From the NCBI RefSeq assembly GCF_017571525.1, contig NZ_JAGETY010000002.1:372001-436000 (forward strand): a DNA stretch of 64,000 nucleotides, read 5' to 3'. Shown here piece by piece: positions 11,593 through 24,804 of the stretch. A program made the position numbers and the translations under genes. Below the pieces are notes generated by a model. The model had not been told where the DNA came from, did no database searches, and saw only the letters and a list, made by a program, of their open reading frames with translations. This stretch comes from Hymenobacter sp. BT559. Lineage in GTDB: Bacteria > Bacteroidota > Bacteroidia > Cytophagales > Hymenobacteraceae. Within the stretch, counting starts at the first letter, position 1, and each line of letters begins with the position of its first letter.

Positions 11593-13137
11593 CTACTTCA
11601 TCTTCAGGAACTTCAGCTGCATCACCTCCTGCACCGAGCGGCCCGAAATTTTACTTTCGAGCCAGGAAATGATGTCGAAGTACAGGAAAGGGCGGCGGTC
11701 GAAGGGTCTGACGGCTATTTCTTCCAGCTTAGTTTTCAGGGCTTTAAACTCGTCGCGCAGCTGGCTAGGGGCCAGGTGGCCCACCCGGCGCAAAAACCGG
11801 AATACCTCCACCTGCATAGGCTGCTGGTCGTTCATCTTGGCCAAAAAATGATACACCGAGCGCACCTGGTGCTCCAGCTCGGCATCGTCGCCGGCCTCGT
11901 AGTGCGCCACCAGGTTGAGGATGCGCGCAAAGCACTGCAAGTCTTCGCGCAGACTCAGGTCTTTATGGTCGATAATGCGATTCAAATACTTGATAGCCTG
12001 TGGGTATTGCCCGCTGCCGAAGTACAGGCAGGCGATTTTGTAGTAGAACACCAGCGTGCGGTGCAGGTCGAGCTGCGCCTTATATTGCCCTAGCTGCTCC
12101 AGCAACTCGGGGATAATCTCGACGCCCTCAGTGAAGCGCGCTTCCAGAAAGCAGGCGTTGATGCGGTTGGTCCAGATGTACTGAAACAGCAGCATCTCGG
12201 TATTGGGTGTGGCGCGGCGCGTTTGGTTGGCTCCGAAGTCTTCCAGCAGCTGCAGTACCTGACTGAACTTGCTGTAATACTGCATATTAAACAACGCAGC
12301 CAGCAAATTGTGTAAGCCCTTGATGTAGAGCATCGTCTGGCTTTCTTTCAGTGCCGGCTGCTGCTCAAACAGGTCGACCCATTTCTGCGCGTAGCGGTAG
12401 CAGGCCCGGAAATCCTGGTTGATAGTATGATACCACACCTGGGCCTGATAAAAGTAAAGCTTCTCCCAAAAGCCGCTGGCCCGCCCCAGCTGCGCCGGCA
12501 CATGCGCCCTAAAATAAGCTGTAAACTGCTCATGGTCAGCCTGATTGCGCGCATGGCCGGCTTGCAAATACAGGCCATACAGCCGGAGCGAGGCATTAGA
12601 CAGCGCGTGCTGCTGGCTGAGGTGCGCGGCCGTGGCCGTGGCCTCGGCGGCCAGCGACTCGGCCCGGCCCTGCAAGCTGCGCGTGATGTACTGCGACTCG
12701 ATAAGCTTCTCAAAATCAATGGCTAGCAGGGCCACGTGCGGCAGCTCGGCCTGCTGGGCAGCCAGCTTCACCTTAGCCAGCATGCGCAGGCTCTGCTGGT
12801 AAAAGCCCTTGTTGTAGAGCACACGGGCGTAGTCGAGCTGCTCGTGCAGCTGAATGTCGAGGTTCTGGCCGGCGTGGTAGAGGCGCAGGCTAGCCAGCAG
12901 CTGCCGGTAGAGGTTGGCCTTGAGGTTGGCGAGCTGGGCGCGCTTAAGGGCTGGCACCTGGGCTAGCACGCGCTCCTCGTCGAGGCTTTCCTGGGCATCG
13001 AAGGCGTCGAAAAGCTGAAGAAACTTCAAGCCTTCCGTGGAGCCCTGGCGATTGGTAAAAAGCCGAAAATGGCGCTTTTCCGACTGCGTCAGGGATTTTA
13101 TCAGCTGAAAAACCGGGTCGCTGCTTCTGTTTGGCAT
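11593..13137 (-). CDS. Helical-repeat (TPR-like) protein, conserved in Bacteroidota, function unknown
   Basis: A 514-residue protein without signal peptide. It is almost all alpha-helix, with repeated helix-turn-helix units of about 35-40 residues such as ARVLYNKGFYQQSLRMLAK and KIACLYFGSGQYPQAIKYLN, in the manner of tetratricopeptide repeats. The start MPNRSSDPVFQLIKSLTQSE (lysine and histidine residues follow) recurs in uncharacterised proteins of this phylum as far as I recall. A scaffold role is inference. It stands alone, divergent from leuA. Confidence 0.65.
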   Translation of the reverse strand: MPNRSSDPVFQLIKSLTQSEKRHFRLFTNRQGSTEGLKFLQLFDAFDAQESLDEERVLAQVPALKRAQLANLKANLYRQLLASLRLYHAGQNLDIQLHEQLDYARVLYNKGFYQQSLRMLAKVKLAAQQAELPHVALLAIDFEKLIESQYITRSLQGRAESLAAEATATAAHLSQQHALSNASLRLYGLYLQAGHARNQADHEQFTAYFRAHVPAQLGRASGFWEKLYFYQAQVWYHTINQDFRACYRYAQKWVDLFEQQPALKESQTMLYIKGLHNLLAALFNMQYYSKFSQVLQLLEDFGANQTRRATPNTEMLLFQYIWTNRINACFLEARFTEGVEIIPELLEQLGQYKAQLDLHRTLVFYYKIACLYFGSGQYPQAIKYLNRIIDHKDLSLREDLQCFARILNLVAHYEAGDDAELEHQVRSVYHFLAKMNDQQPMQVEVFRFLRRVGHLAPSQLRDEFKALKTKLEEIAVRPFDRRPFLYFDIISWLESKISGRSVQEVMQLKFLKMK

Positions 13138-13303
13138 TGTAAAATACTTCTCTTCAAGCTATTTATTAACAGCAACTTAACAAAATAATGGCCTCGCTTG
13201 GAAATAGTAAAAACCAGTAAAAGTTGTTTTTCGCGCCGCTCGACGGGCTGGTACTTGCAGCCCAATAACAAAGCTGGCCCTGCTTCGGCAGGTATTCATC
13301 TCT

Positions 13304-14470
13304 ATGGCGACGCAAAAAATTCAGATTTTCGATACCACTCTCCGCGACGGCGAACAGGTGCCGGGCTGCAAGCTAAACCAGCAGGAGAAACTCGTTATTG
13401 CCCGCCAGCTCGAAGCGCTAGGGGTCGATGTGATTGAGGCCGGTTTTCCCGTGTCAAGTCCCGGCGATTTTGCCGCCGTGGCCGCCATTGCCGCCCAAAC
13501 AAAGGAAGCCACCGTATGCGGCCTCACCCGCGCCGTCGAAAATGACATTCGGGTAGCCGCCGAAGCCCTGCGCTCGGCGCGCCGGCCGCGCATCCACACC
13601 GGCATCGGCACCAGCGACCTGCACGTGCAGCAGAAGCTGCGCACCACCCGCGAAGACGTGATTGCCCGCGCCGTGGCCGCTGTGAAGCTCGCCAAGAGCT
13701 TTGTAGAGGACGTGGAGTTTTACGCCGAAGACGCCGGCCGCACCGACAATGAGTTTCTAGCTAGGGTGTGTGAGGCGGCTATTGCGGCCGGCGCTACCGT
13801 GCTCAACATCCCCGACACTACCGGGTACTGCCTGCCGCAGGAGTACGGCGCCAAGATTAAGTATCTGTACGACAACGTAAAAGGCATCGACCGGGCTATC
13901 CTCTCGACGCACTGCCACAACGACCTGGGCCTAGCCACTGCCAACTCCATTGCGGGCGTTACCAACGGCGCGCGCCAGATTGAGTGCACCATCAATGGCG
14001 TGGGCGAGCGCGCCGGCAACACCGCCCTCGAAGAAGTGGTGATGATACTGCGTCAGCATCCCTACCTCAACCTGGCTACCAACGTGCAAACCAAGCTCTT
14101 GGCCGAAACCTCGGCGCTGGTGTCGCACCTCATGAGCATGCCCGTGCAGGCCAACAAAGCCATTGTGGGCGCCAACGCCTTTGCCCACAGCAGCGGCATC
14201 CACCAGGATGGCGTGATTAAGTGCCGCGAGACGTACGAAATTATTGACCCTAAAGAAGTTGGCGTCGCCGATTCGAGCATCGTGCTCACCGCCCGCTCGG
14301 GCCGGGCAGCCCTCGCCTACCGCCTCCAAAAGCTAGGGTATGATTTGGAGCGCCCGGCGCTCAACACGGCCTACGCCAGCTTTTTGCAGCTAGCCGACCG
14401 CCAGCGCGAAGTATTCGACAACGACTTGCACAGCCTCATTGAACAAGAAAAACTAGTAGCCGTCGGCTAA
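13304..14470 (+). CDS. leuA: 2-isopropylmalate synthase, short form
   Basis: A 388-residue enzyme of the HMGL-like family that condenses acetyl-CoA with 2-oxoisovalerate, the first committed step to leucine. The metal site is seen as the N-terminal RDGEQ and as HCHNDLG (HxH). [14 protein letters not shown] is the family signature. Typical LeuA has about 510 residues with a C-terminal leucine-binding regulatory domain; this one stops after the catalytic TIM barrel and linker. Homocitrate synthase or citramalate synthase are alternatives, but the leuCDB neighbours support LeuA. A small hairpin with a TTCG loop lies just before the start codon. Confidence 0.93.
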
Positions 14471-14474
14471 CCAA

Positions 14475-14614
14475 GGCTAAGGAAACGGGGTGGCAGGCGC
14501 TGCCAGTGGGTGGGAGCAGGGAAATCAGGGGGTCGGGTTAAAACCCCATAAACGCCATTCTTTCACACCCTTAACACGACCAAAATTTCCCCCTGTTGCT
14601 TCGTTTCCTTAGCC
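14475..14614 (+). promoter_or_regulatory. Candidate structured RNA leader between leuA and leuC
   Basis: A perfect 13-bp long-range inverted repeat (GGCTAAGGAAACG at 14475-14487, its complement at 14602-14614) encloses 114 bases. Inside lie a 6-bp hairpin with a 3-base loop (14491-14505), a small GGTT/AACC hairpin near 14536, and an imperfect second pairing between 14514-14525 and 14585-14600. The arrangement resembles a closed multi-stem RNA ahead of leuC. No leader peptide with an ATG start and no T-run terminator was found, so a regulatory role is a guess. Confidence 0.35.
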
Positions 14615-14666
14615 CGTTGGCCGATTTGCTACTCCGATTTATTACTAGCTATCCTATCTCTACCCA

Positions 14667-16058
14667 ATGCCCCGGCCCTTATTCGATAAAATCTGGGATG
14701 CCCACGTTGTTCGCTCGCTCGACGCGCTCGACGTGGTCTACATCGACCGCCACCTCATTCACGAAGTCACTAGCCCCCAAGCGTTTGACGAGCTAGCCGC
14801 GCGCGGCCTGGAGTTATTCCGCCCTAGCCAGATTCTGGCCACGGCCGACCACAACGTACCGACCCTCAACCAACACCTGCCCATTGCGGAGCCCCTCTCT
14901 CGCTCGCAGGTGGATAAGCTGACGGAGAATTGCCAGAAATACGGTATTGAGCTCTACGGCCTGGGCCATGAGCGCCAGGGCATTGTGCACGTGATTGGGC
15001 CCGAGCTGGGCCTCACGCAGCCCGGCCTGACCATGGTGTGCGGCGACAGCCACACCTCTACGCACGGCGCATTTGGCGCGGTGGCGTTCGGTATTGGCAC
15101 TAGCCAAGTGGCGCAGGTAATGGCCTCGCAGTGCCTGCTGCTGAGCCGGCCCAAGCGCATGCGCATTTCGGTAGAAGGCGAGCTGCGGCCCGGCGTTACG
15201 GCGAAGGATTTGATTTTGTATATCATCGCGCAGCTCGGCACGGGCGGGGCCACGGGCCACTTCGTGGAGTATGCGGGCAGCGCCGTGCGCAGCCTCAGCA
15301 TGGAAGGCCGCATGACCGTCTGCAACATGAGCATCGAGATGGGCGCCCGCGGTGGCCTCATCGCCCCCGATGCCACCACGTTTGCCTACGTGGCGGGACG
15401 GCCCTTCGCGCCGCAAGGTGCGGCTTGGGACGACGCGGTGGCCTATTGGCAAACGCTGTACTCGGACGAGGACGCGGTATTCGACACCGAGTTTACGTAC
15501 GATGCGGCGGCCATCACGCCCATGATTACCTACGGCACCAACCCCGGCATGGGCATCGCCATCACCGGCCACGTGCCGAATGAGGTGCCCGCCGCCGAAG
15601 CCGAGAGCTTCGACAAGTCGCTCAAGTACATGGGCTTCGAGCGCGGCGAGTCGCTATTGGGCAAGCAGATTGATTACGTGTTTATTGGCAGCTGCACCAA
15701 CTCGCGTATCGAAGACCTGCGCGCCGTAGCCGCCTACGTGGCCGGCAAGCAGAAGGCCGAGCACGTAGCCGCCTTCATTGTGCCCGGCTCCAAGCAGGTT
15801 GAGCAGCAGGCTATTGCCGAGGGCATCGACAAGATTTTTGCCGCTGCGGGCTTCGAGCTGCGTGAGCCCGGTTGCAGTGCTTGCCTGGCCATGAACGAGG
15901 ACAAGATTCCGGCGGGTGCCTACTGCGTGGCTACCTCCAACCGCAACTTCGAGGGGCGGCAAGGGCCCGGCTCGCGCACGCTGCTGGCTAGCCCCCTGGT
16001 GGCAGCCATCACGGCCGTGCAGGGCCGCATAGTGGACATTACGCAGTACTTGAACTAA
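14667..16058 (+). CDS. leuC: 3-isopropylmalate dehydratase large subunit
   Basis: A 463-residue aconitase-family subunit that isomerises 2- to 3-isopropylmalate together with LeuD. The [4Fe-4S] ligands are visible in GSCTNSR and in [12 protein letters not shown]; the early [14 protein letters not shown] loop and the [13 protein letters not shown] segment are the leuC-type active-site signatures. The ATG at 14667 begins the standard N-terminus ([10 protein letters not shown]). The stop codon overlaps the leuD start by one base (TAATG), implying translational coupling. Confidence 0.97.
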
Positions 16059-16654
16059 TGGAAAAATTTCAGACCCTGCGCACTTCCGGCGTGCCACTGC
16101 CGCTGGAAAACATTGATACCGACCAGATTATTCCGGCGCGCTTTCTGAAAGCGACCACCCGCGAAGGCTTCGGCACCAACCTCTTCTGCGACTGGCGCTA
16201 CAACGCCGACGGCTCGCCTAAGCCGGAATTTGTGCTGAACGACCCGCGCTACCAGGGCCAGATTTTGGTAGCCGGCAAAAACTTTGGCTGCGGCAGCAGC
16301 CGCGAGCACGCCGCCTGGGCCCTGTACGATGCCGGTTTTCGGGCGGTGATTTCGAGCTATTTCGCCGATATTTTTCGGGGTAATGCCTTGAACACCGGCC
16401 TTCTGCCGCTGCAAATGAGCGACGAGGTACTAGCCCGCCTGCTGGCTGCCATTGAGGCCGACCCAACGCTGGAGCTGGTAGTCGACCTGCCGGCCCAGAC
16501 CCTAGCGGTCCCAGCCTGGGGCGAGACATTCAGTTTCGCTATCGACCCCTACAAGAAGGAGTGCCTGATTAACGGCTACGACGACATCGACTTTTTAGTA
16601 AATCAAAAATCTGCCATTGCGGCCTTCGAAAAACAACGCGCATGGACATGGTAA
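16058..16654 (+). CDS. leuD: 3-isopropylmalate dehydratase small subunit
   Basis: A 198-residue swivel subunit that completes the LeuCD isomerase. The motifs [14 protein letters not shown] and [14 protein letters not shown] (the loop that reaches into the active site) identify it without doubt. Its start overlaps leuC by one base and its end overlaps leuB by 13 bases, so leuC, leuD and leuB are one tightly coupled operon. Confidence 0.97.
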
Positions 16655-17763
16655 CCAAGAAAATAGCCTTACTGCCCGGCGATGGCATCGGGCCGGAAGT
16701 CTGTCGGCAGGCCGTGAAAGTGCTCGACGCCGTAGCCGAGCGCTTCGGCCACCGGTTTGAGTTCACCTCACACCTCGTGGGCGCCTGCGCCATCGACGCT
16801 ACTGGCAACCCGCTGCCTGACGAGACCCTAGCCGCCTGCCGCGCCTCCGACGCGGTGCTTTTCGGCGCCATCGGCGACCCGAAATATGACAACGACCCCA
16901 CCGCCAAAGTGCGCCCCGAACAAGGCCTGCTGCGCATGCGCAAGGAACTGGGTTTGTTTGCCAACATCCGCCCCGTGACCGCCTACAAGGCACTGCTGAA
17001 GCACTCGCCGCTGAAGTCGGACCGCATCGAAGGCACTGACCTCGTGATTTTCCGGGAGCTGACGGGCGGCATCTACTTCGGCGGGAAAGGCCGGATGGCT
17101 GATGGCTCTGCTTACGACCACTGCACGTACTCACGAGTTGAGATTGAGCGCATTGCTCACTTGGCGTTTCAGTCGGCTGCCGGCCGCCGCCAGCACCTCA
17201 CGCTCGTGGATAAGGCTAACGTACTGGAAACCTCACGCTTGTGGCGCGAAGTAGTGCGTGAGATTGCCTCGCAATACCCCGAAGTGGAGGTTGATTATCT
17301 GTTCGTGGACAACGCCGCGATGCAGATTATCACCAACCCCCGGCAGTTTGACGTGATGCTGACCGAGAACATGTTCGGCGATATTATCTCGGACGAAGCT
17401 TCGGTCATTGCTGGCTCGATGGGCCTACTGCCCTCCGCCTCGGTGGGTGCCGAAGTGGCGGTGTTTGAGCCCATCCACGGCTCGTACCCCCAGGCCAAGG
17501 GCAAAGGCATTGCCAACCCGCTGGCCGCCATCCTCTCGGCCGCCATGTTGCTCGAACACCTGGGCCTAGCGGCTGAGGCCGAGCTGGTGCGCGAAGCGGT
17601 GGACGAAGCCTTGACCAACCAGATTCTAACGCCCGAACTGAACGCTACGGCTCCTTACACTACCGAGCAGGTGGGTAGCTACGTGGCCTTCTGGATTGCC
17701 GACTCGAATGAGCAGCAGTGGAATGCCCACAACATTGCGGTGGGCGTGAGTACGATTATCTAA
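16642..17763 (+). CDS. leuB: 3-isopropylmalate dehydrogenase
   Basis: A 373-residue NAD-dependent beta-decarboxylating dehydrogenase giving 2-oxoisocaproate. Signatures are [11 protein letters not shown], the substrate-binding [17 protein letters not shown], and [12 protein letters not shown] for metal and substrate. The start at 16642 (MDMVTKK) lies inside leuD; a second ATG at 16648 is equally possible. It is followed after only 20 bases by a short reading frame and terminator, described separately as an attenuator of ilvD. Confidence 0.97.
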
Positions 17764-17783
17764 GATTACCAAATTCATCACCC

Positions 17784-17876
17784 ATGTGCGGACTCGCTGA
17801 GTCTGCGCTACTGCCAGCCTTGCGCCCCTTCCTGCTAGTCATTTCCGTGGTCTTTATTCCTACCCTCGCGGGCTAG
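17784..17876 (+). CDS. Candidate branched-chain amino acid leader peptide of the ilv operon
   Basis: A 30-codon frame beginning with ATG and ending with TAG. Twelve of 30 residues are Leu, Val or Ile, and seven of nine codons from 17832 to 17858 specify them (LLVISVVFI). It lies 20 bases after leuB and is followed within 25 bases by a terminator hairpin ahead of ilvD. The last nine bases of the frame, stop codon included (GCGGGCTAG), can pair perfectly with 17907-17915 in the terminator. These features are those of a leader peptide used in transcription attenuation. The hydrophobic run could also be chance; translation is unproven. Confidence 0.6.
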   Translation: MCGLAESALLPALRPFLLVISVVFIPTLAG

Positions 17877-17933
17877 CAGGTACTTCTTACGCCAAAGAAA
17901 ACCTTCCTAGCCCGCCGGCAGGAAGGTTTTTTT
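17868..17933 (+). terminator. Attenuator: antiterminator and terminator ahead of ilvD
   Basis: The terminator is a stem AACCTTCCT/AGGAAGGTT (17899-17908 with 17920-17929, extended by GCC/GGC in the loop) followed by seven T. Its 5' arm end and loop (17907-17915, CTAGCCCGC) are the exact complement of 17868-17876, the end of the leader frame. A ribosome stalled at the Leu/Val/Ile codons near 17832-17858 would leave the first segment free to pair and disrupt the terminator; a ribosome reaching the stop codon would cover it and let the terminator form. The base pairing is seen directly; the mechanism is inferred. Confidence 0.65.
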
Positions 17934-17968
17934 AGGGCCAAATCGTTCTTTTTTCCCGAATTAACACC

Positions 17969-19690
17969 ATGACGCTCAATAAATTCAGCCGCATCTACAC
18001 CCAAGACGACAGCTTGCCGGCTTCGCAGGCCATGCTCATCGGCGCGGGCTTGTCGGATGCGGATTTGCGCAAGCCGTTTGTGGGCATCTGCTCCACGGGC
18101 TTCGAGGGCAACACCTGCAACATGCACCTCGACGGGCTAGCCGACGAGGTGAAGCGCGGCGTGGCCGCCCAGGGGCTGGTGGGGTTGCGCTTCAATACCA
18201 TCGGCGTGAGCGACGGGATTACGAACGGCAACGCGGGTATGCGCTTTTCGCTGGTGTCGCGGGAGATAATTGCCGATTCGATTGAGGCCATGGCCGGCGC
18301 GCACTACTACGATGCCCTAGCCACGGTGGTGGGCTGCGACAAGAACATGCCCGGCGCACTCATCGCCATGGCGCGGCTGAATAGACCGTCGCTGATGGTG
18401 TATGGCGGCACCATCCGGGGCGGCGAGTTTAAGGGGCAGCAGCTCAATATTGTCTCGTGCTTTGAGGCCTACGGCAAGAAGGTAAACGGGCAGATTTCGG
18501 AGGAAGACTACCAAGGCATCATCCACAATGCCTGCCCTGGGCCGGGCGCCTGCGGCGGCATGTACACGGCCAATACGATGGCCGCGGCCATCGAAACGCT
18601 GGGTATGACAGTACCCGCCTCGTCGTCGCTGCCCGCCGAAAGCAGCGCTAAGGTGCAGGAGTGCCTCGACACGGGCGCCTACCTGCGCCGCCTGCTGGAG
18701 CTAGACTTGAAGCCGCGCGACATCCTAACCCGTGCGGCGTTTGAGAATGCGATGGTCATTATCACGGTGCTCGGCGGCTCGACCAATGCGGTGCTGCACC
18801 TCATCGCCATTGCCCACGCGGCGGGTGTGCCCCTCACCATGGAAGACTTCCAGGCCGTGAGCAACCGCGTACCGGTGCTAGCCGACCTCAAGCCCAGCGG
18901 CAAATATCTTATGGAGGACTTGTCGAAAATCGGTGGGGTGCCCGCCGTGCAGCGCACGCTGCTCGACTACGGCCTGCTGAATGGCGACTTGATGACCGTG
19001 ACCGGCCGCACCCTGGCCGAAAACCTGGCCGATGTGCAGCCGCTAGGCCCCGAGCAGGACCTGCTGCGCCCGCTCAGCAACCCCATCAAGGCCGACGGGC
19101 ACATTCAAATGCTGTATGGCAACCTCGCTACCAAAGGCGGTGTGGCCAAAATTACGGGCAAGGAAGGCCTACGGTTCGAAGGGCCGGCCATCGTGTTCAA
19201 CTCGGAAGAAGAACTAAACCAAGGTATTACCGACCACAAAATTCAGCCCGGGCAGGTGGTGGTGATTCGCTACGTGGGGCCCAAGGGCGGACCGGGCATG
19301 CCCGAAATGCTGAAGCCGACCTCGGCCATCATGGGCGCGGGCCTCGGCGACAAAGTGGCCCTGATAACCGACGGCCGCTTTTCGGGCGGCACCCACGGCT
19401 TCGTGATAGGGCACGTCTGCCCCGAGGCGTTCGACGGCGGCGGCATTGCGCTGGTGCAAGACGGCGACTGGATAGTGCTAGATGCCAGCACCAATACCAT
19501 GGACGTGCGCCTCTCCGACGACGAACTGGCGGCCCGCCGCGCTGCCTGGCGCCGCCCGCCGCTGCCCGCCCGGCAGGGCGTGCTGCTCAAGTATATCCGC
19601 ACCGTGAGCGACGCCAGCCACGGCTGCATCACCGATTTACTCGAAGAAGATTATGTCCGCGAACCCGCTCTCAGCCCAGCCCACCGCTAG
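17969..19690 (+). CDS. ilvD: Dihydroxy-acid dehydratase
   Basis: A 573-residue Fe-S dehydratase that makes 2-oxoacids in valine, isoleucine and leucine synthesis. The cluster cysteines are seen in GNTCNMH (Cys50), GCDKNMPG (Cys123) and [13 protein letters not shown] (Cys195); the C-terminal SGGTHG and metal-binding motifs are present. Three cysteines are compatible with either a [2Fe-2S] or a [4Fe-4S] cluster. The gene follows the candidate attenuator by about 35 bases and overlaps ilvB by 38 bases at its end. It is probably made only when leader translation stalls, if the attenuator works as proposed. Confidence 0.97.
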
Positions 19691-21398
19691 CCCGGTCGCC
19701 CCGGGTCTTGCGCCCACCACCGGCGCGGTAGCCACGCTGCAAGCGCTGGTGGCCGAGGGCGTAGATACCGTTTTTGGCTACCCCGGCGGGGCCATCATTC
19801 CGATTTACGACGCGCTCTACGACTTCAAGGACCAACTCAACCACGTGCTGGTGCGCCACGAGCAGGGCGGCATTCACGCGGCGCAGGGCTACGCGCGCAG
19901 CTCGGGCCGGGTGGGCGTGGCGCTGGCCACGAGCGGGCCCGGCGCTACCAACCTCGTGACGGGGCTAGCCGACGCGCTCATCGACAGCACGCCGCTGGTG
20001 TGCATTACGGGCCAGGTGTTTGCGCACTTGCTGGGCACCGATGCGTTTCAGGAGACGGACATTATCAACATCACGACGCCCGTCACGAAGTGGAACTACC
20101 AAGTAACCAGAGCCGAAGAGATACCTGAGGCGCTAGCCAAGGCCTTCTATATTGCGCGCAGCGGCCGGCCCGGCCCGGTGTTGGTAGATATTACCAAAAA
20201 TGCGCAGATGCAGACCTTCGAGGCGCTCGCCTACGAGCCGTGCACGCACATCCGTAGCTACCGGCCCGCGCCGGTGGTGCGCAAGGAGTATATCGAGCAA
20301 GCGGCGGCCCTGATTAACAGCGCCAAGCGGCCGTTCATTCTCTGGGGGCAGGGCGTGGTGCTTGGCCAGGCCGAGCGCGAATTTCAGGAATTTGTGGAGA
20401 AAAGCGGCATCCCAGCCGCCTGGACTATCCTGGGCGTGGGGGCCCTAGCCACCGGCCACCCGCTGAACGTGGGTATGCTGGGCATGCACGGCAACTACGG
20501 CCCCAACGTGCTCACCAACGAGTGCGACGTGCTGATTGCCATTGGCATGCGCTTCGACGACCGCGTGACTGGCCGCCTCGATAAGTACGCCAAGCAGGCG
20601 CAGGTAGTGCACCTCGATATCGACCCCACCGAGATTGATAAGAACGTGAAAACCACCGTACCGGTGTGGGGCGACTGTAAGGAAACCCTGCCCCTGCTCA
20701 CGGCCTTGGTTGAGCGCAAAACCCACGAAGCCTGGCTAGCCCGCTTTAATGACTACACCGCGCAGGAAGTGGACGCCGTGATTCGGGAGGAGCTGTTTCC
20801 GACCTCGGAGGAGCTGACAATGGGCGAGGTGCTGCAACAGCTCAACGAAATCACGGGTGGTGAGGCCGTTATCGTGTCCGACGTGGGCCAGCATCAGATG
20901 GTGGCCTGCCGCTACGCGCTGCAAAACCAGTCGCGCAGCCACGTTACGAGCGGCGGGCTGGGCACCATGGGCTTTGCGCTGCCAGCCGCCATTGGGGCCA
21001 AGTTTGGCGCGCCGCACCGGCCGGTGGTAGCCGTGATTGGCGATGGCGGCTTCCAGATGACGATTCAGGAGCTGGGTACCATCATGCAGACGGGTGTGGA
21101 TGTTAAAATCCTCATCCTCAACAATCAGTTTCTGGGCATGGTGCGGCAGTGGCAGGAGCTGTTTCACCAGCGGCGCTACTCGTTTGTAGATATCCAAAGC
21201 CCTGACTACGTGGCCGTAGCCGCCGGCTACCGCATTGCCGGCCAGCGGGTGGACGACCGCGCCGAATTGCGCCCGGCGCTGGAGAAAATGCTGGCGTACC
21301 CTGGTTCCTTTCTGCTCGAAGTGATGGTGACCAAGGAAAATAACATCTTCCCGATGGTGCCGCAGGGGTGCAGCGTGGCAGAAATCCGGCTGCGGTAA
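19653..21398 (+). CDS. ilvB: Acetolactate synthase large subunit
   Basis: A 581-residue thiamine-diphosphate enzyme that condenses pyruvate with pyruvate or 2-oxobutyrate. Seen are [15 protein letters not shown], the catalytic glutamate in [16 protein letters not shown], the FAD-binding middle domain, and the ThDP/Mg motif [14 protein letters not shown] ending in LNNQ. The ATG at 19653 overlaps ilvD by 38 bases, an unusually long overlap; an alternative later start would remove a poorly conserved proline-alanine-rich N-terminal extension. The regulatory subunit follows after a repeat-containing gap of 148 bases. Confidence 0.97.
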
Positions 21399-21427
21399 AT
21401 AAGCTTCCGCTAGCCCTCCCCACTTGC

Positions 21428-21522
21428 CGTTGCGAGGAGGAACGACGAAGTAATCGCATCAGCACGTCACCCCAACGTCATCGTTCAGATGCGATTGCTT
21501 CGCAGGCTAGGCTCGCAATGAC
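21428..21522. repeat. Paired palindromic intergenic repeat (family C)
   Basis: Two imperfect inverted units, 21428-21460 and 21488-21522, share a TTGCGAG box and an AATCGCATC box. The unit resembles the GTCATTGCGAGGAGGAACGACGAAG type of repeat common in bacterial genomes. Only this copy is seen in the window, between ilvB and ilvN. Confidence 0.65.
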
Positions 21523-21546
21523 AGACGATTTAACAAGCCCTAAAGC

Positions 21547-22137
21547 ATGGAACGCCAAGAATATAACATCACCGCGTACACCGAAAACCAGGTGGGTTTG
21601 CTCAATCGCATTGCCATCATCTTTTCACGCCGCAAAATCAATATTGAGAGCCTCAACGTGTCGCCCTCGGAAATTGAAGGCATCCACCGCTTCAACATCG
21701 TGATTGTGGAAACGGAGGAAGTAGTGCACAAGCTGGCCAAGCAAATCGAGAAGCAGGTGGAGGTGCTGAAAGTGTACTTCAACCCCAACCAGGACGTGAT
21801 TTGGCAGGAGATGGCACTCTACAAAGTGCCGACCGACGTGATTGCCGAAAAAGTGCTCGTGGAGCGCCTGCTGCGCGAAAACGGGGCTAGGGCCGTGGTT
21901 ATTCGCAAAGACTACACGGTGTTTGAAACCACCGGCCACCGCGAGGAAACCGACAGCCTGATTAAGGCTTTGCAGCCCTACGGGCTGATTGAGTTTGTGC
22001 GCTCGGCGCGCATTGCCATCATCAAGGCTAGCGACGGCTTTCACAGCAAGCTCCAGGAGTTTGAGCGCCGCGAACCGAGCGAGGAAGTGGCCGAAAACGA
22101 GTTTTTAAACGACCGCGAACAGGTCTTTACCATGTAG
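21547..22137 (+). CDS. ilvN: Acetolactate synthase small (regulatory) subunit
   Basis: A 196-residue protein with an N-terminal ACT domain (ITAYTENQVGLLNRIAIIFS, then RRKINIESLNV) and the C-terminal ACT-like half typical of IlvH/IlvN. It binds the large subunit and gives valine feedback inhibition. The last codons read ACC ATG TAG, and the TAG belongs to a palindromic repeat (family B) that begins at 22134, so the present C-terminus may have been set by insertion of that repeat. Confidence 0.95.
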   Translation: MERQEYNITAYTENQVGLLNRIAIIFSRRKINIESLNVSPSEIEGIHRFNIVIVETEEVVHKLAKQIEKQVEVLKVYFNPNQDVIWQEMALYKVPTDVIAEKVLVERLLRENGARAVVIRKDYTVFETTGHREETDSLIKALQPYGLIEFVRSARIAIIKASDGFHSKLQEFERREPSEEVAENEFLNDREQVFTM

Positions 22138-22218
22138 CGCGGACTTTCAGTCCGCGAGTTTAACCGATTTTTCACAACACCTTTTTCAACCACTTTGCGG
22201 ACTAAAAGTCCGCGCTAC
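22134..22218. repeat. Paired palindromic repeat, family B copy 1
   Basis: The left unit GTAGCGCGGACTTTCAGTCC (22134 onward, ending in GCGAG) and its inverted partner (22196-22218) flank a variable 37-base centre. Each unit itself contains the hairpin GCGGACT/AGTCCGC. Here the left unit supplies the stop codon of ilvN; the right unit ends 12 bases before the ilvC start. Confidence 0.9.
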
Positions 22219-22230
22219 ACCCCAACCCGT

Positions 22231-23292
22231 ATGGCAACCATCAACTTCGGCGGCGTACCCGAAACCGTTATCACCCGCGATGAATTTCCGCTACAAAAGG
22301 CGCTCGAATTTCTGAAAGATGAAACCATCGCCGTAATCGGCTACGGGGTGCAGGGCCCCGGCCAGGCGCTGAACATGCGCGATAACGGCTTCCACGTAAT
22401 TGTGGGCCAGCGCGAGGGCACGCCTTCGTGGGAGCGCGCCCTCAAGGATGGCTGGGTGCCAGGCGAGTCGCTCTTCAGCATCGAGGAGGCGGCCGACAAG
22501 GGCACCATCATCTGCAACCTACTGAGCGATGCCGGCCAAATCGCGCTGTGGCCGACGCTCCAGAAATACCTCACGCCGGGCAAGACGCTGTACTTCTCGC
22601 ACGGCTTCGGCATCACGTTTAATGACCAGACGGGCATTGTGCCCAGCAAGGATATCGACGTGATTTTGGTGGCACCCAAGGGCAGCGGCACCAGCCTGCG
22701 CCGCTTGTTTGTAGCCGGCGGTGGCCTGAACTCGTCGTTTGCCGTGTACCAGGATGCCAGCGGCAAAGCCTGGGAAAAAGCCATCGCAATGGGCATCGGC
22801 GTGGGCTCGGGCTACCTGTTTGAAACCGATTTCAAGCGCGAAGTATACTCCGACCTCACCGGCGAGCGTGGCGTGCTGATGGGGGCCCTAGCCGGCATTA
22901 TCGAAGCCCAGTACCAGGTGCTGCGCCAGCGCGGCCACTCGCCTTCGGAGGCCTTCAACGAAACCGTGGAGGAACTCACCCAGAGCCTCGTACCGCTGGT
23001 GGGCGAAAACGGCATGGATTGGATGTTTGGCAACTGCTCGGTGACCGCCCAGCGCGGCGCCCTCGACTGGAAAGGCAAGTTCCGCGACGCAACTCTGCCC
23101 GTGCTCAACGACCTTTACGACAGCGTAGCTAGCGGCGCCGAAGCCCGCCGCACCATCGAGCGCGGCAGCACGCCCAACTACCGCCAGGAGCTGGAAGCCG
23201 AGCTGAAAGAAGTACGCGACTCGGAGCTGTGGCAGACCGGCGCCACCGTGCGCGAGCTGCGCTCGCGCACGAGTGAGAGCGTGGAGGCATAA
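22231..23292 (+). CDS. ilvC: Ketol-acid reductoisomerase
   Basis: A 353-residue NADPH-dependent enzyme that isomerises and reduces acetolactate. The N-terminal Rossmann loop is GYGVQGPGQALNMRD; the C-terminal knotted domain carries the Mg-binding acidic residues in SDLTGERGVLMGALAG and FNETVEELT. The ATG at 22231 was chosen because an upstream TTG start would lie inside the palindromic repeat. It ends 21 bases before a further palindromic repeat (family A). Confidence 0.96.
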   Translation: MATINFGGVPETVITRDEFPLQKALEFLKDETIAVIGYGVQGPGQALNMRDNGFHVIVGQREGTPSWERALKDGWVPGESLFSIEEAADKGTIICNLLSDAGQIALWPTLQKYLTPGKTLYFSHGFGITFNDQTGIVPSKDIDVILVAPKGSGTSLRRLFVAGGGLNSSFAVYQDASGKAWEKAIAMGIGVGSGYLFETDFKREVYSDLTGERGVLMGALAGIIEAQYQVLRQRGHSPSEAFNETVEELTQSLVPLVGENGMDWMFGNCSVTAQRGALDWKGKFRDATLPVLNDLYDSVASGAEARRTIERGSTPNYRQELEAELKEVRDSELWQTGATVRELRSRTSESVEA

Positions 23293-23312
23293 ATCATCCA
23301 GTTATTCTCTCT

Positions 23313-23420
23313 AAAAGCCCGTCATGCTGAGCTTGTCGAAGCACCTCTATTACGCCGCTAGGGTCGCTGACCCAAGGAAGCGGTAGAGATGCTTCGGCAA
23401 GCTCAGCATGACGGGCTTTT
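23313..23420. repeat. Paired palindromic repeat, family A copy 1
   Basis: Inverted units of the type GTCATGCTGAGCTTGTCGAA with a GCATCTCTACCGC-like extension flank a centre containing GCCGCTAGGGTCG. It sits between ilvC and ilvA and, with its flanking A and T runs, could also act as a terminator, though ilvA continues the pathway. Confidence 0.9.
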
Positions 23421-23455
23421 TTATTTAAAAGCTAGTCCCACTAGCCCCAACCCCT

Positions 23456-24730
23456 ATGCCCGACCTAGAAGCCCCGGCGGCCACCGCCGTTACCCTAGCC
23501 AACGTCGAGGCCGCCGCGCGCCGCCTCAAAGGCGTCATTACCAAGACGCCCCTCATGCAAAACCTGGGGCTCTCGCGCAACTACGATGCGACTATTCTGC
23601 TCAAGCGCGAGGACTTGCAGGTGGTGCGTTCGTATAAAATCAGGGGGGCTTACAACAAGATTGCGACGCTGCCCACTACCGTGCCGGGCCGCCAGATAGT
23701 GTGCGCCAGCGCGGGCAACCACGCCCAGGGGGTGGCCTACGCCTGCCAGCTACTGGGCCTGCAAGGCGACATTTTCATGCCCGCCCAAACGCCGGCCCAG
23801 AAGGTGGACAAGGTGCGCCTCTTCGGCAAAGACATGGTGACGGTGCACCTCACCGGCCGCACCTTCGACGATTGCTACCACGCGGCGCAGGCCTTCTGCG
23901 ATGCGCGCGGCAGCACCTTCGTGCACCCGTTTGATGACCTGGCCATTGTGGAAGGGCAGGCCACGGTGGGCCTGGAAATTCTAAAAGCAGCTCACGATGC
24001 GCCAATTGATTTTTGCTTTATGCCCATCGGCGGGGGCGGGCTGGCATCGGGGCTAGCCAGCGTATTTCGGCAATTGAGCCCACATACCAAGCTCATTGGG
24101 GTGCAGCCGCTAGGGGCACCCAGCATGCACGACGCCCTGGCAGCCGGGCAGCGGCAGGCGCTGGCCAGCCTCGATACCTTCGTGGATGGCGCGGCCGTGA
24201 AGTGCCCCGGCGAGCTGACGTTCGAGATTTGCCAGGCGCTACTCGATGAAGTGCACCTCGTGCCCGAAGGCCAGGTGTGCGAAGACCTGCTGAAGATGTA
24301 CAACGAGGAAGGTATGGTACTGGAGCCCGCGGGCACCCTAGCCATCTCGGCCCTGCACGCCTACGCCGACCAAATTCGGGGCAAAACAGTGGTGTGCATC
24401 GTCAGCGGCTCCAACAACGACATCACCCGCATGGAGGACATTAAGGAGCGCGCCCAGCGCCACCAGGGCCTCAAGCACTACTTTATGGTGCGCTTCAACC
24501 AAGCGCCCGGGGCGTTGCGCCGCTTCGTAAACAACGTGCTGGCCGAGGGCGAGGACATCATTCAATTTCAATACATTAAGAAGAATAACAAGGAGAAAGG
24601 CCCCGTTTTTATCGGGGTAGAAGTGCAGCAGCGCGGCGACGAGGCGGGCATTATGGCGCGCATGGCGGCCGAGGGCTTTGGCTTTGAATACCTTAATGGG
24701 CAACAGGATTTTCTGAGCCTGCTGGTGTGA
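23456..24730 (+). CDS. ilvA: Threonine dehydratase (biosynthetic)
   Basis: A 424-residue PLP enzyme converting threonine to 2-oxobutyrate for isoleucine synthesis. The PLP lysine lies in VRSYKIRGAYN, the phosphate-binding glycine loop is IGGGGLASG, and SAGNHAQGVAY binds substrate. The C-terminal part (HYFMVRFNQAPGALRRFVNN) is a single ACT-like regulatory domain, as in the shorter IlvA proteins of Gram-positive bacteria and Bacteroidota. It is the last gene of the branched-chain region and ends in a strong bidirectional terminator. Confidence 0.95.
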   Translation: MPDLEAPAATAVTLANVEAAARRLKGVITKTPLMQNLGLSRNYDATILLKREDLQVVRSYKIRGAYNKIATLPTTVPGRQIVCASAGNHAQGVAYACQLLGLQGDIFMPAQTPAQKVDKVRLFGKDMVTVHLTGRTFDDCYHAAQAFCDARGSTFVHPFDDLAIVEGQATVGLEILKAAHDAPIDFCFMPIGGGGLASGLASVFRQLSPHTKLIGVQPLGAPSMHDALAAGQRQALASLDTFVDGAAVKCPGELTFEICQALLDEVHLVPEGQVCEDLLKMYNEEGMVLEPAGTLAISALHAYADQIRGKTVVCIVSGSNNDITRMEDIKERAQRHQGLKHYFMVRFNQAPGALRRFVNNVLAEGEDIIQFQYIKKNNKEKGPVFIGVEVQQRGDEAGIMARMAAEGFGFEYLNGQQDFLSLLV

Positions 24731-24746
24731 GCACTTGCTCTCTTCA

Positions 24747-24804
24747 GCAACTAAAAAAGTCTGTCATGCTGAGCTTACTCAGCATAACAGACTTTTTTAG
24801 TTGC
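24747..24804. terminator. Bidirectional terminator between ilvA and the GH5 gene
   Basis: The stem 24747-24764 pairs with 24787-24804 (18 bp), with an A run and T run on either side; the loop region contains a shrunken core of the family A repeat (CATGCTGAGC...CTCAGCAT). The two flanking genes converge here. Confidence 0.92.

Follow-up and report, generated by a model that had tools for sequence, protein, structure and literature searches.

A predicted leader-peptide attenuator between leuB and ilvD of Hymenobacter sp. BT559 and its counterparts in relatives

The DNA analysed here, a stretch of 64,000 nucleotides from Hymenobacter sp. BT559 (hereafter the window), holds the genes leuA, leuC, leuD, leuB, ilvD, ilvB, ilvN, ilvC and ilvA in this order, as assigned with NCBIfam and Pfam, and the four genes that follow ilvD extend up to position 24730. 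A gap of 205 bases separates leuB from ilvD and folds with a z-score of −4.43; among 5000 dinucleotide shuffles of this gap, a frame rich in codons for branched-chain amino acids (BCAA; Leu, Val, Ile) arose in 91, and such a frame together with a terminator in 0. At the other end of the leu genes, the word GAAATAGTA lies at 13200–13209 upstream of leuA and recurs upstream of ilvD in loci L119, L120, L123 and L124, where it is a possible promoter or operator common to leuA and ilvD. LeuA itself (13304–14470) has 388 amino acids that align with the first 384 of the 516 positions of its NCBIfam model, and Pfam does not list a C-terminal regulatory domain for it; that domain has a role in feedback by leucine, so this feedback may be missing.

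Twenty bases past the stop codon of leuB begins an ATG frame of 30 codons, 17784–17876, which reads MCGLAESALLPALRPFLLVISVVFIPTLAG before its stop and includes 12 Leu, Ile or Val residues; the initial annotation had described this frame and its cluster LLVISVVFI, both of which are seen in the sequence. The BCAA-rich frame running to the TAG stands as described, but its start does not. In the leuB–ilvD gaps of relatives, which were obtained by searching 120 same-genus genomes at the DNA level and contain leaders such as MRPFLLVISVVIIPTLAG (read to the stop), the ATG corresponds in the alignment to TTG 17820 in the window, and the stretch 17784–17819 holds a palindrome that is variable or absent in the relatives. 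For this reason, ATG 17784 was dropped as the conserved start, 17820–17876 was taken as the conserved frame, and the leader probably starts at TTG 17820, as far as the alignment can indicate.

Downstream of the frame stands an intrinsic terminator with the arms AAACCTTCCT and AGGAAGGTTT on either side of a loop and a run of seven Ts, a hairpin that had been noted before and is present in the sequence as described; a simple consensus scan, which permits loops of 3–8 bases, did not list it, and the loop here is longer. The end of the frame, stop codon included, is the exact reverse complement of 17907–17915, in agreement with the perfect 9-bp complement between frame end and terminator that was proposed earlier, and this match forms part of a longer antiterminator helix (Table 1). 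A third pairing, in which a region 1 within the leader would protect region 2, comprises 8 bp in the window, 6–8 bp in some ilvD-type loci and mostly 3–5 bp elsewhere; a general 1:2 protector hairpin was sought in the relatives' loci and not found.

Table 1. Features of the leuB–ilvD region, in coordinates of the window.
Feature	Position	Strand	Description
leuB	16642–17763	+	TIGR00169, 454 bits against a cut-off of 353; closes leuA-leuC-leuD-leuB, 5' of the attenuator
Palindrome GCGGACTCGCTGAGTCTGCGC	17788–17808	+	Single copy in the window; like stretches dispersed in some same-genus genomes
Leader frame (M)RPFLLVISVVFIPTLAG, probable start	17820–17876	+	18 codons; TTG start, TAG stop 17874–17876; alignment with the relatives' ATG
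Possible region 1, CCTGCTAG	17831–17838	+	Pairs with region 2 at 17873–17880; not general in relatives
Control codons LLVISVVFI	17832–17858	+	Sequence; in 69 leaders, Leu, Ile or Val make up 64–97% at positions −6 to −13 relative to the stop
Antiterminator 5' side	17868–17888	+	GCGGGCTAG 17868–17876, AGGT 17878–17881, TTCTT 17884–17888
Antiterminator 3' side	17895–17915	+	AAGAA 17895–17899, ACCT 17901–17904, CTAGCCCGC 17907–17915
Intrinsic terminator	17899–17933	+	Arms 17899–17908 and 17920–17929, T run 17927–17933
ilvD	17969–19690	+	TIGR00110, 700 bits against a cut-off of 618; first gene 3' of the attenuator

The palindrome in front of the leader probably lies outside the attenuator proper. 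The relatives' gaps carry different palindromes or none, and stretches resembling it were found by DNA search elsewhere in 6 of the 120 same-genus genomes (G010, G018, G045, G080, G106 and G107). The leuB–ilvD gaps of relatives often contain palindromes of the type GCGGACT...AGTCCGC. Together with the TTG in place of the relatives' ATG, this palindrome, which folds stably beside ATG 17784, would suit an element that descends from a once-working attenuator and is defunct in the window species. Such a decay is unlikely, because the control codons, the 9-bp complement and the T run are intact in the window and the in-frame ATG 17784 could itself serve as a start; moreover, a covariance model (R1) built from an alignment of 24 sequences finds a single match in the own genome, whose 113 bits put it near the top of the list for the genus.

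Model R1 matches 66 of 120 same-genus genomes and 78 of 200 family genomes from three of six genera, with one match per genome except in G090, which has two on two contigs. Seventy elements were studied, comprising 30 loci from the own-genome and genus searches and 40 further stretches, while nine matched genomes (G030, G037, G067, G089, G092, G170, G185, G188 and G199) lie outside this set; a cmsearch over the 70 loci recovered every expected match, 70 in all, together with one weak match on the reverse strand of L036. The leader frame is present in 69 of the 70 elements with its BCAA control codons kept, and its stop is separated from the terminator arm by 23 nt in 15 of 21 rows of this (B) type with a listed frame and by 20–26 nt in the rest (rows L023 and L024, for which no frame is listed, are outside this count). 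Downstream of the elements, ilvE is found in 42 and ilvD without ilvE in 26, for a total of 68 of 70; the other two are L034, at a contig end, and L078 (from G010), which has leuB upstream, a broken leader frame and no ilv gene found within 1.5 kb downstream, and which looks like a decayed copy. R1 has no match in 54 of the 120 same-genus genomes, and the two of these that were inspected, G011 and G013, possess ilvD with no BCAA-rich ATG frame within 1500 bases upstream; the genus thus does not carry the device throughout. In L015, L016, L018 and L021, attenuator and ilvD are separated by a gene that resembles a methyltransferase but scores below every NCBIfam cut-off; a similar gene occurs in L017, where the attenuator is absent.

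Intrinsic terminators are common at operon ends, and the one described here follows closely behind leuB; hence it might be the ordinary terminator of leuACDB, with ilvD served by a separate promoter and a BCAA-rich frame that arose by chance. This is very unlikely, since the element tracks ilvE or ilvD rather than leuB, which was seen in at least 38 of the 70 loci (a lower bound, because the upstream sequence covers no more than about 500 bases in 40 of them), the frame and the antiterminator are conserved, and ilvD starts only 35 bases beyond the T run.

An alignment of relatives, which the initial annotation had named as a check on its proposal, reveals that the Leu, Val and Ile codons are kept and that compensatory changes occur in both helices. 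Across 24 sequences, 88.0% of the antiterminator cells pair, with 8 doubly changed cells against 2.1 in shuffles, while the number of doubly changed pairs, three, is not above shuffles (98 of 500 reach it). In the terminator, 100% of the cells pair and nine pairs are kept in 24 of 24 sequences; 9 cells are doubly changed against 2.3 in shuffles, and the two doubly changed pairs are likewise not above shuffles (243 of 500 reach two). With 61 elements aligned to R1, both sides have changed in 14 of 18 antiterminator pairs, and the doubly changed cells number 120 against 37.9 in shuffles and 5–14 when the partner is slid by 1–3 columns, in an alignment that is itself fitted to the structure and leaves 16.8% of the antiterminator cells unpaired. 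By an alignment-free measure, the duplex of the frame end with the terminator arm and loop ranks among the top 5% when compared with its own shuffles for 61 of 69 elements, and for 57 of 69 it exceeds the average strength obtained with swapped partners; in the remaining 12, the cognate duplex is no better than swapped partners. Four of these (L092, L093, L096 and L097) come from genus g3; the arms taken for these four end within the loop, a possible reason for the weakness of their duplexes.

The substitutions in the leader point in the same direction. Over 32 independent pairs of elements, 49 codon changes in the leader frame are synonymous, 33 exchange one hydrophobic residue for another and 77 are of other kinds, against 28, 14 and 114 in one of the two other frames and 31, 1 and 121 in the second; judged by these changes, the leader frame evolves as coding sequence, and the window copy may be translated as well, from a probable TTG start. 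A tally of start codons was left unused because it chooses the start giving the richest frame. Among the final 14 codons of the leaders, GTC accounts for 128 of 171 Val codons and ATT for 185 of 202 Ile codons, against 8% and 51%, respectively, in the nine leu and ilv genes of the window. Attenuators are known to favour particular codons strongly at their control positions (PMC1183508). The least probable alternative, a ligand-binding riboswitch or protein-binding leader that governs the terminator while the frame is incidental, draws on the fact that a pair of competing structures ahead of a biosynthetic gene suits any attenuator class, but it leaves the frame and its codon bias unexplained, allows little room for an aptamer in the 23 nt that usually separate frame end and terminator, and finds no counterpart in Rfam, where the gathering score returned tRNA alone for the window and a search at E up to 5 of 17700–18000 gave no relevant match and no leader family.

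The leuB–ilvD element is best read, with a probability of roughly 0.9 from its sequence features, as a ribosome-mediated transcription attenuator for the ilv genes. The earlier proposal of a leader-peptide attenuator before ilvD agrees with the conserved BCAA frame and its codon content, the terminator, the covarying competing helices and the linkage to ilvE or ilvD. In the proposed sequence of events, RNA polymerase arriving from leuB would transcribe the leader frame with a ribosome behind it. With charged tRNAs for Leu, Val and Ile available, translation would run to the TAG and the ribosome would cover the antiterminator 5' arm (17868–17876), since that arm includes the stop codon; as a result, the terminator would form and ilvDBNCA would stay untranscribed. 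When one of the BCAA is short, the ribosome would stall within the control codons, and the 5' side of the antiterminator would be free to pair with the 3' side, a pairing that would remove the left arm of the terminator and allow transcription to go on. Because the 1:2 protector is not general, cover by the finishing ribosome may suffice. From this arrangement, we infer that ribosome and polymerase would be coupled, that transcripts would indeed terminate and that the ilv genes would be cotranscribed with leuACDB, the relative weight of the three amino acids being likewise a matter of inference, and the position of the element suggests that it would act on read-through from leuACDB and thus set ilvDBNCA apart from leu.

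In 12 of the 70 elements (L034, L041, L045, L047, L080, L086 and L092–L097), a second, different BCAA leader with its own terminator (A-type) lies just upstream, and a TAnnTTTG word, which we take to resemble the Bacteroidetes −7 box, precedes this upstream leader in 11 of the 12 tandem loci. The A-type antiterminator is formed by GGAGATGG pairing with CCATCTCC; in the 12 sequences, both sides have changed in two antiterminator and four terminator pairs, with 8 doubly changed cells in the antiterminator (3.1 in shuffles) and 12 in the terminator (3.9 in shuffles). A model of these 12 elements (R2) matches 36 of 200 family genomes, and A and B matches lie 38–60 nt apart in 16 genomes. Among 30 R2 loci examined, 25 have ilvE or ilvD, L108, which lies behind leuB, is cut off by the end of its contig, and four belong to other systems, counted as three before asnA and one before a cysteine synthase; eight further R2 matches are outside this count. 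Asn-rich frames, for instance MRHFRNIRQNNNSNNNIIRDWKAIAPWEN, with a terminator before a gene were observed in L127, L128 and L130 (leader at about 1475, on the strand of the element), and the gene behind the Asn-rich leader is asnA by TIGR00669 in L127 and L130. Locus L129 (1454–1816) displays two Cys-rich frames (GCCCAAF and AACCCCCACPW), each with a terminator; its downstream gene is cysteine-synthase-like, with TIGR01138 as the best model, below cut-off.

The tandem layout is the most novel part of this analysis and is found in relatives; the window carries the B-type attenuator alone. An A-type search of the own genome at E up to 10 gave no match, an empty answer that by this search shows little, and an Asn-run pattern had no match there either. 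The strict TAnnTTTG word was not found on the + strand of 12901–24800; as it is missing even before leuA, its absence before the leader says little. Where two BCAA gates do stand in series, they raise the question of why one pathway should have two sensors.

Beyond the family, an IlvD search supplied the best 80 listed titled loci, mostly Bacteroidota with some labelled otherwise and including two of Hymenobacter, which were scanned for an ATG frame of at least 38% Leu, Ile or Val, 10–50 nt before a terminator and at most 1800 bases upstream of ilvD. A BCAA leader with terminator was found upstream of ilvD in 46 of these 80 loci, against 3 of 80 on the reverse strand, 1 of 75 in downstream same-strand stretches and 0 or 1 of 80 for six other amino-acid sets; a looser first scan had given 48 against 7 on the reverse strand and was tightened to the stop-to-terminator distance of 10–50 nt. 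Of the 46 leaders, 23 have ilvE between leader and ilvD, 22 lie within 400 bases of ilvD, and one (L144) shows neither arrangement. The genera with leaders among the best 80 listed loci include Flavobacterium, Chitinophaga, Chryseobacterium, Tenacibaculum, Lutibacter, Pedobacter and Chryseolinea. GTC accounts for 36% of leader Val codons, compared with 9% in the accompanying ilvD genes (44 listed loci, Hymenobacter excluded). Exact complements in the listed loci are mostly 4–7 bases and are weaker than the 9 bp of the window. Two BCAA leaders in series precede ilvD in five of the best 80 listed loci, from other families (L134, L161, L173, L192 and L195); a second candidate leader in L174 was rejected as a tandem because it is about 500 bases away. 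It seems an even wager that the ilv operons of Bacteroidota are widely run by leader-peptide attenuators, that the series of promoter, A and B, with two BCAA-sensing gates ahead of ilvE or ilvD, is an old layout, and that the window species lost the promoter and A and kept B behind leuB, turning a device of the operon head into an internal valve setting ilv against leu. A covarying, codon-biased ilv attenuator in Hymenobacter, with look-alikes before ilvD in the Bacteroidota genera named above, makes the mechanism testable throughout the phylum.

The element belongs to a known class of mechanism, has no Rfam match and occupies an unusual site behind leuB. Enterobacterial attenuators such as that of ilvGMEDA combine a leader rich in codons for the products of the pathway, a terminator and a competing antiterminator, and the finishing ribosome sits over the 5' arm of the latter. 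The present element is similar to ilvGMEDA in its BCAA-codon leader, its terminator and the placement of the antiterminator 5' arm under the finishing ribosome; it departs from ilvGMEDA in that its possible 1:2 protector, seen in the window, is not general in relatives, and it lies behind leuB within a leu-ilv run rather than at the operon head, with no Rfam leader family. In a literature search that left most subscription journals uncovered, no report was found on tandem BCAA leaders or on Bacteroidota ilv leaders; Lopatovskaya et al. 2010, as cited in PMC4833913, may contain related predictions. Leader-peptide attenuation of ilv genes is reported for Corynebacterium ilvBNC and Staphylococcus aureus ilv (PMC11857589, PMC10272879, PMC5794164), which share the type of mechanism in other phyla. 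Within the same phylum, one prior statement was found: for Flavobacterium psychrophilum, 'strong clues' are reported for leader-peptide attenuation before amino-acid biosynthesis operons (PMC9723704), so the phylum is not virgin ground; the main text of that paper has 'ilv' 0 times and names no ilv leader and no tandem. Lastly, Salmonella mgtCBR has been called 'a singular example' of tandem attenuators answering different signals (PMC3641672). There, the signals are ATP and proline, whereas the tandem Bacteroidota loci are BCAA-rich in both leaders and the window has only one; the likeness between mgtCBR and the tandem relatives lies in two leader frames with attenuators in series.
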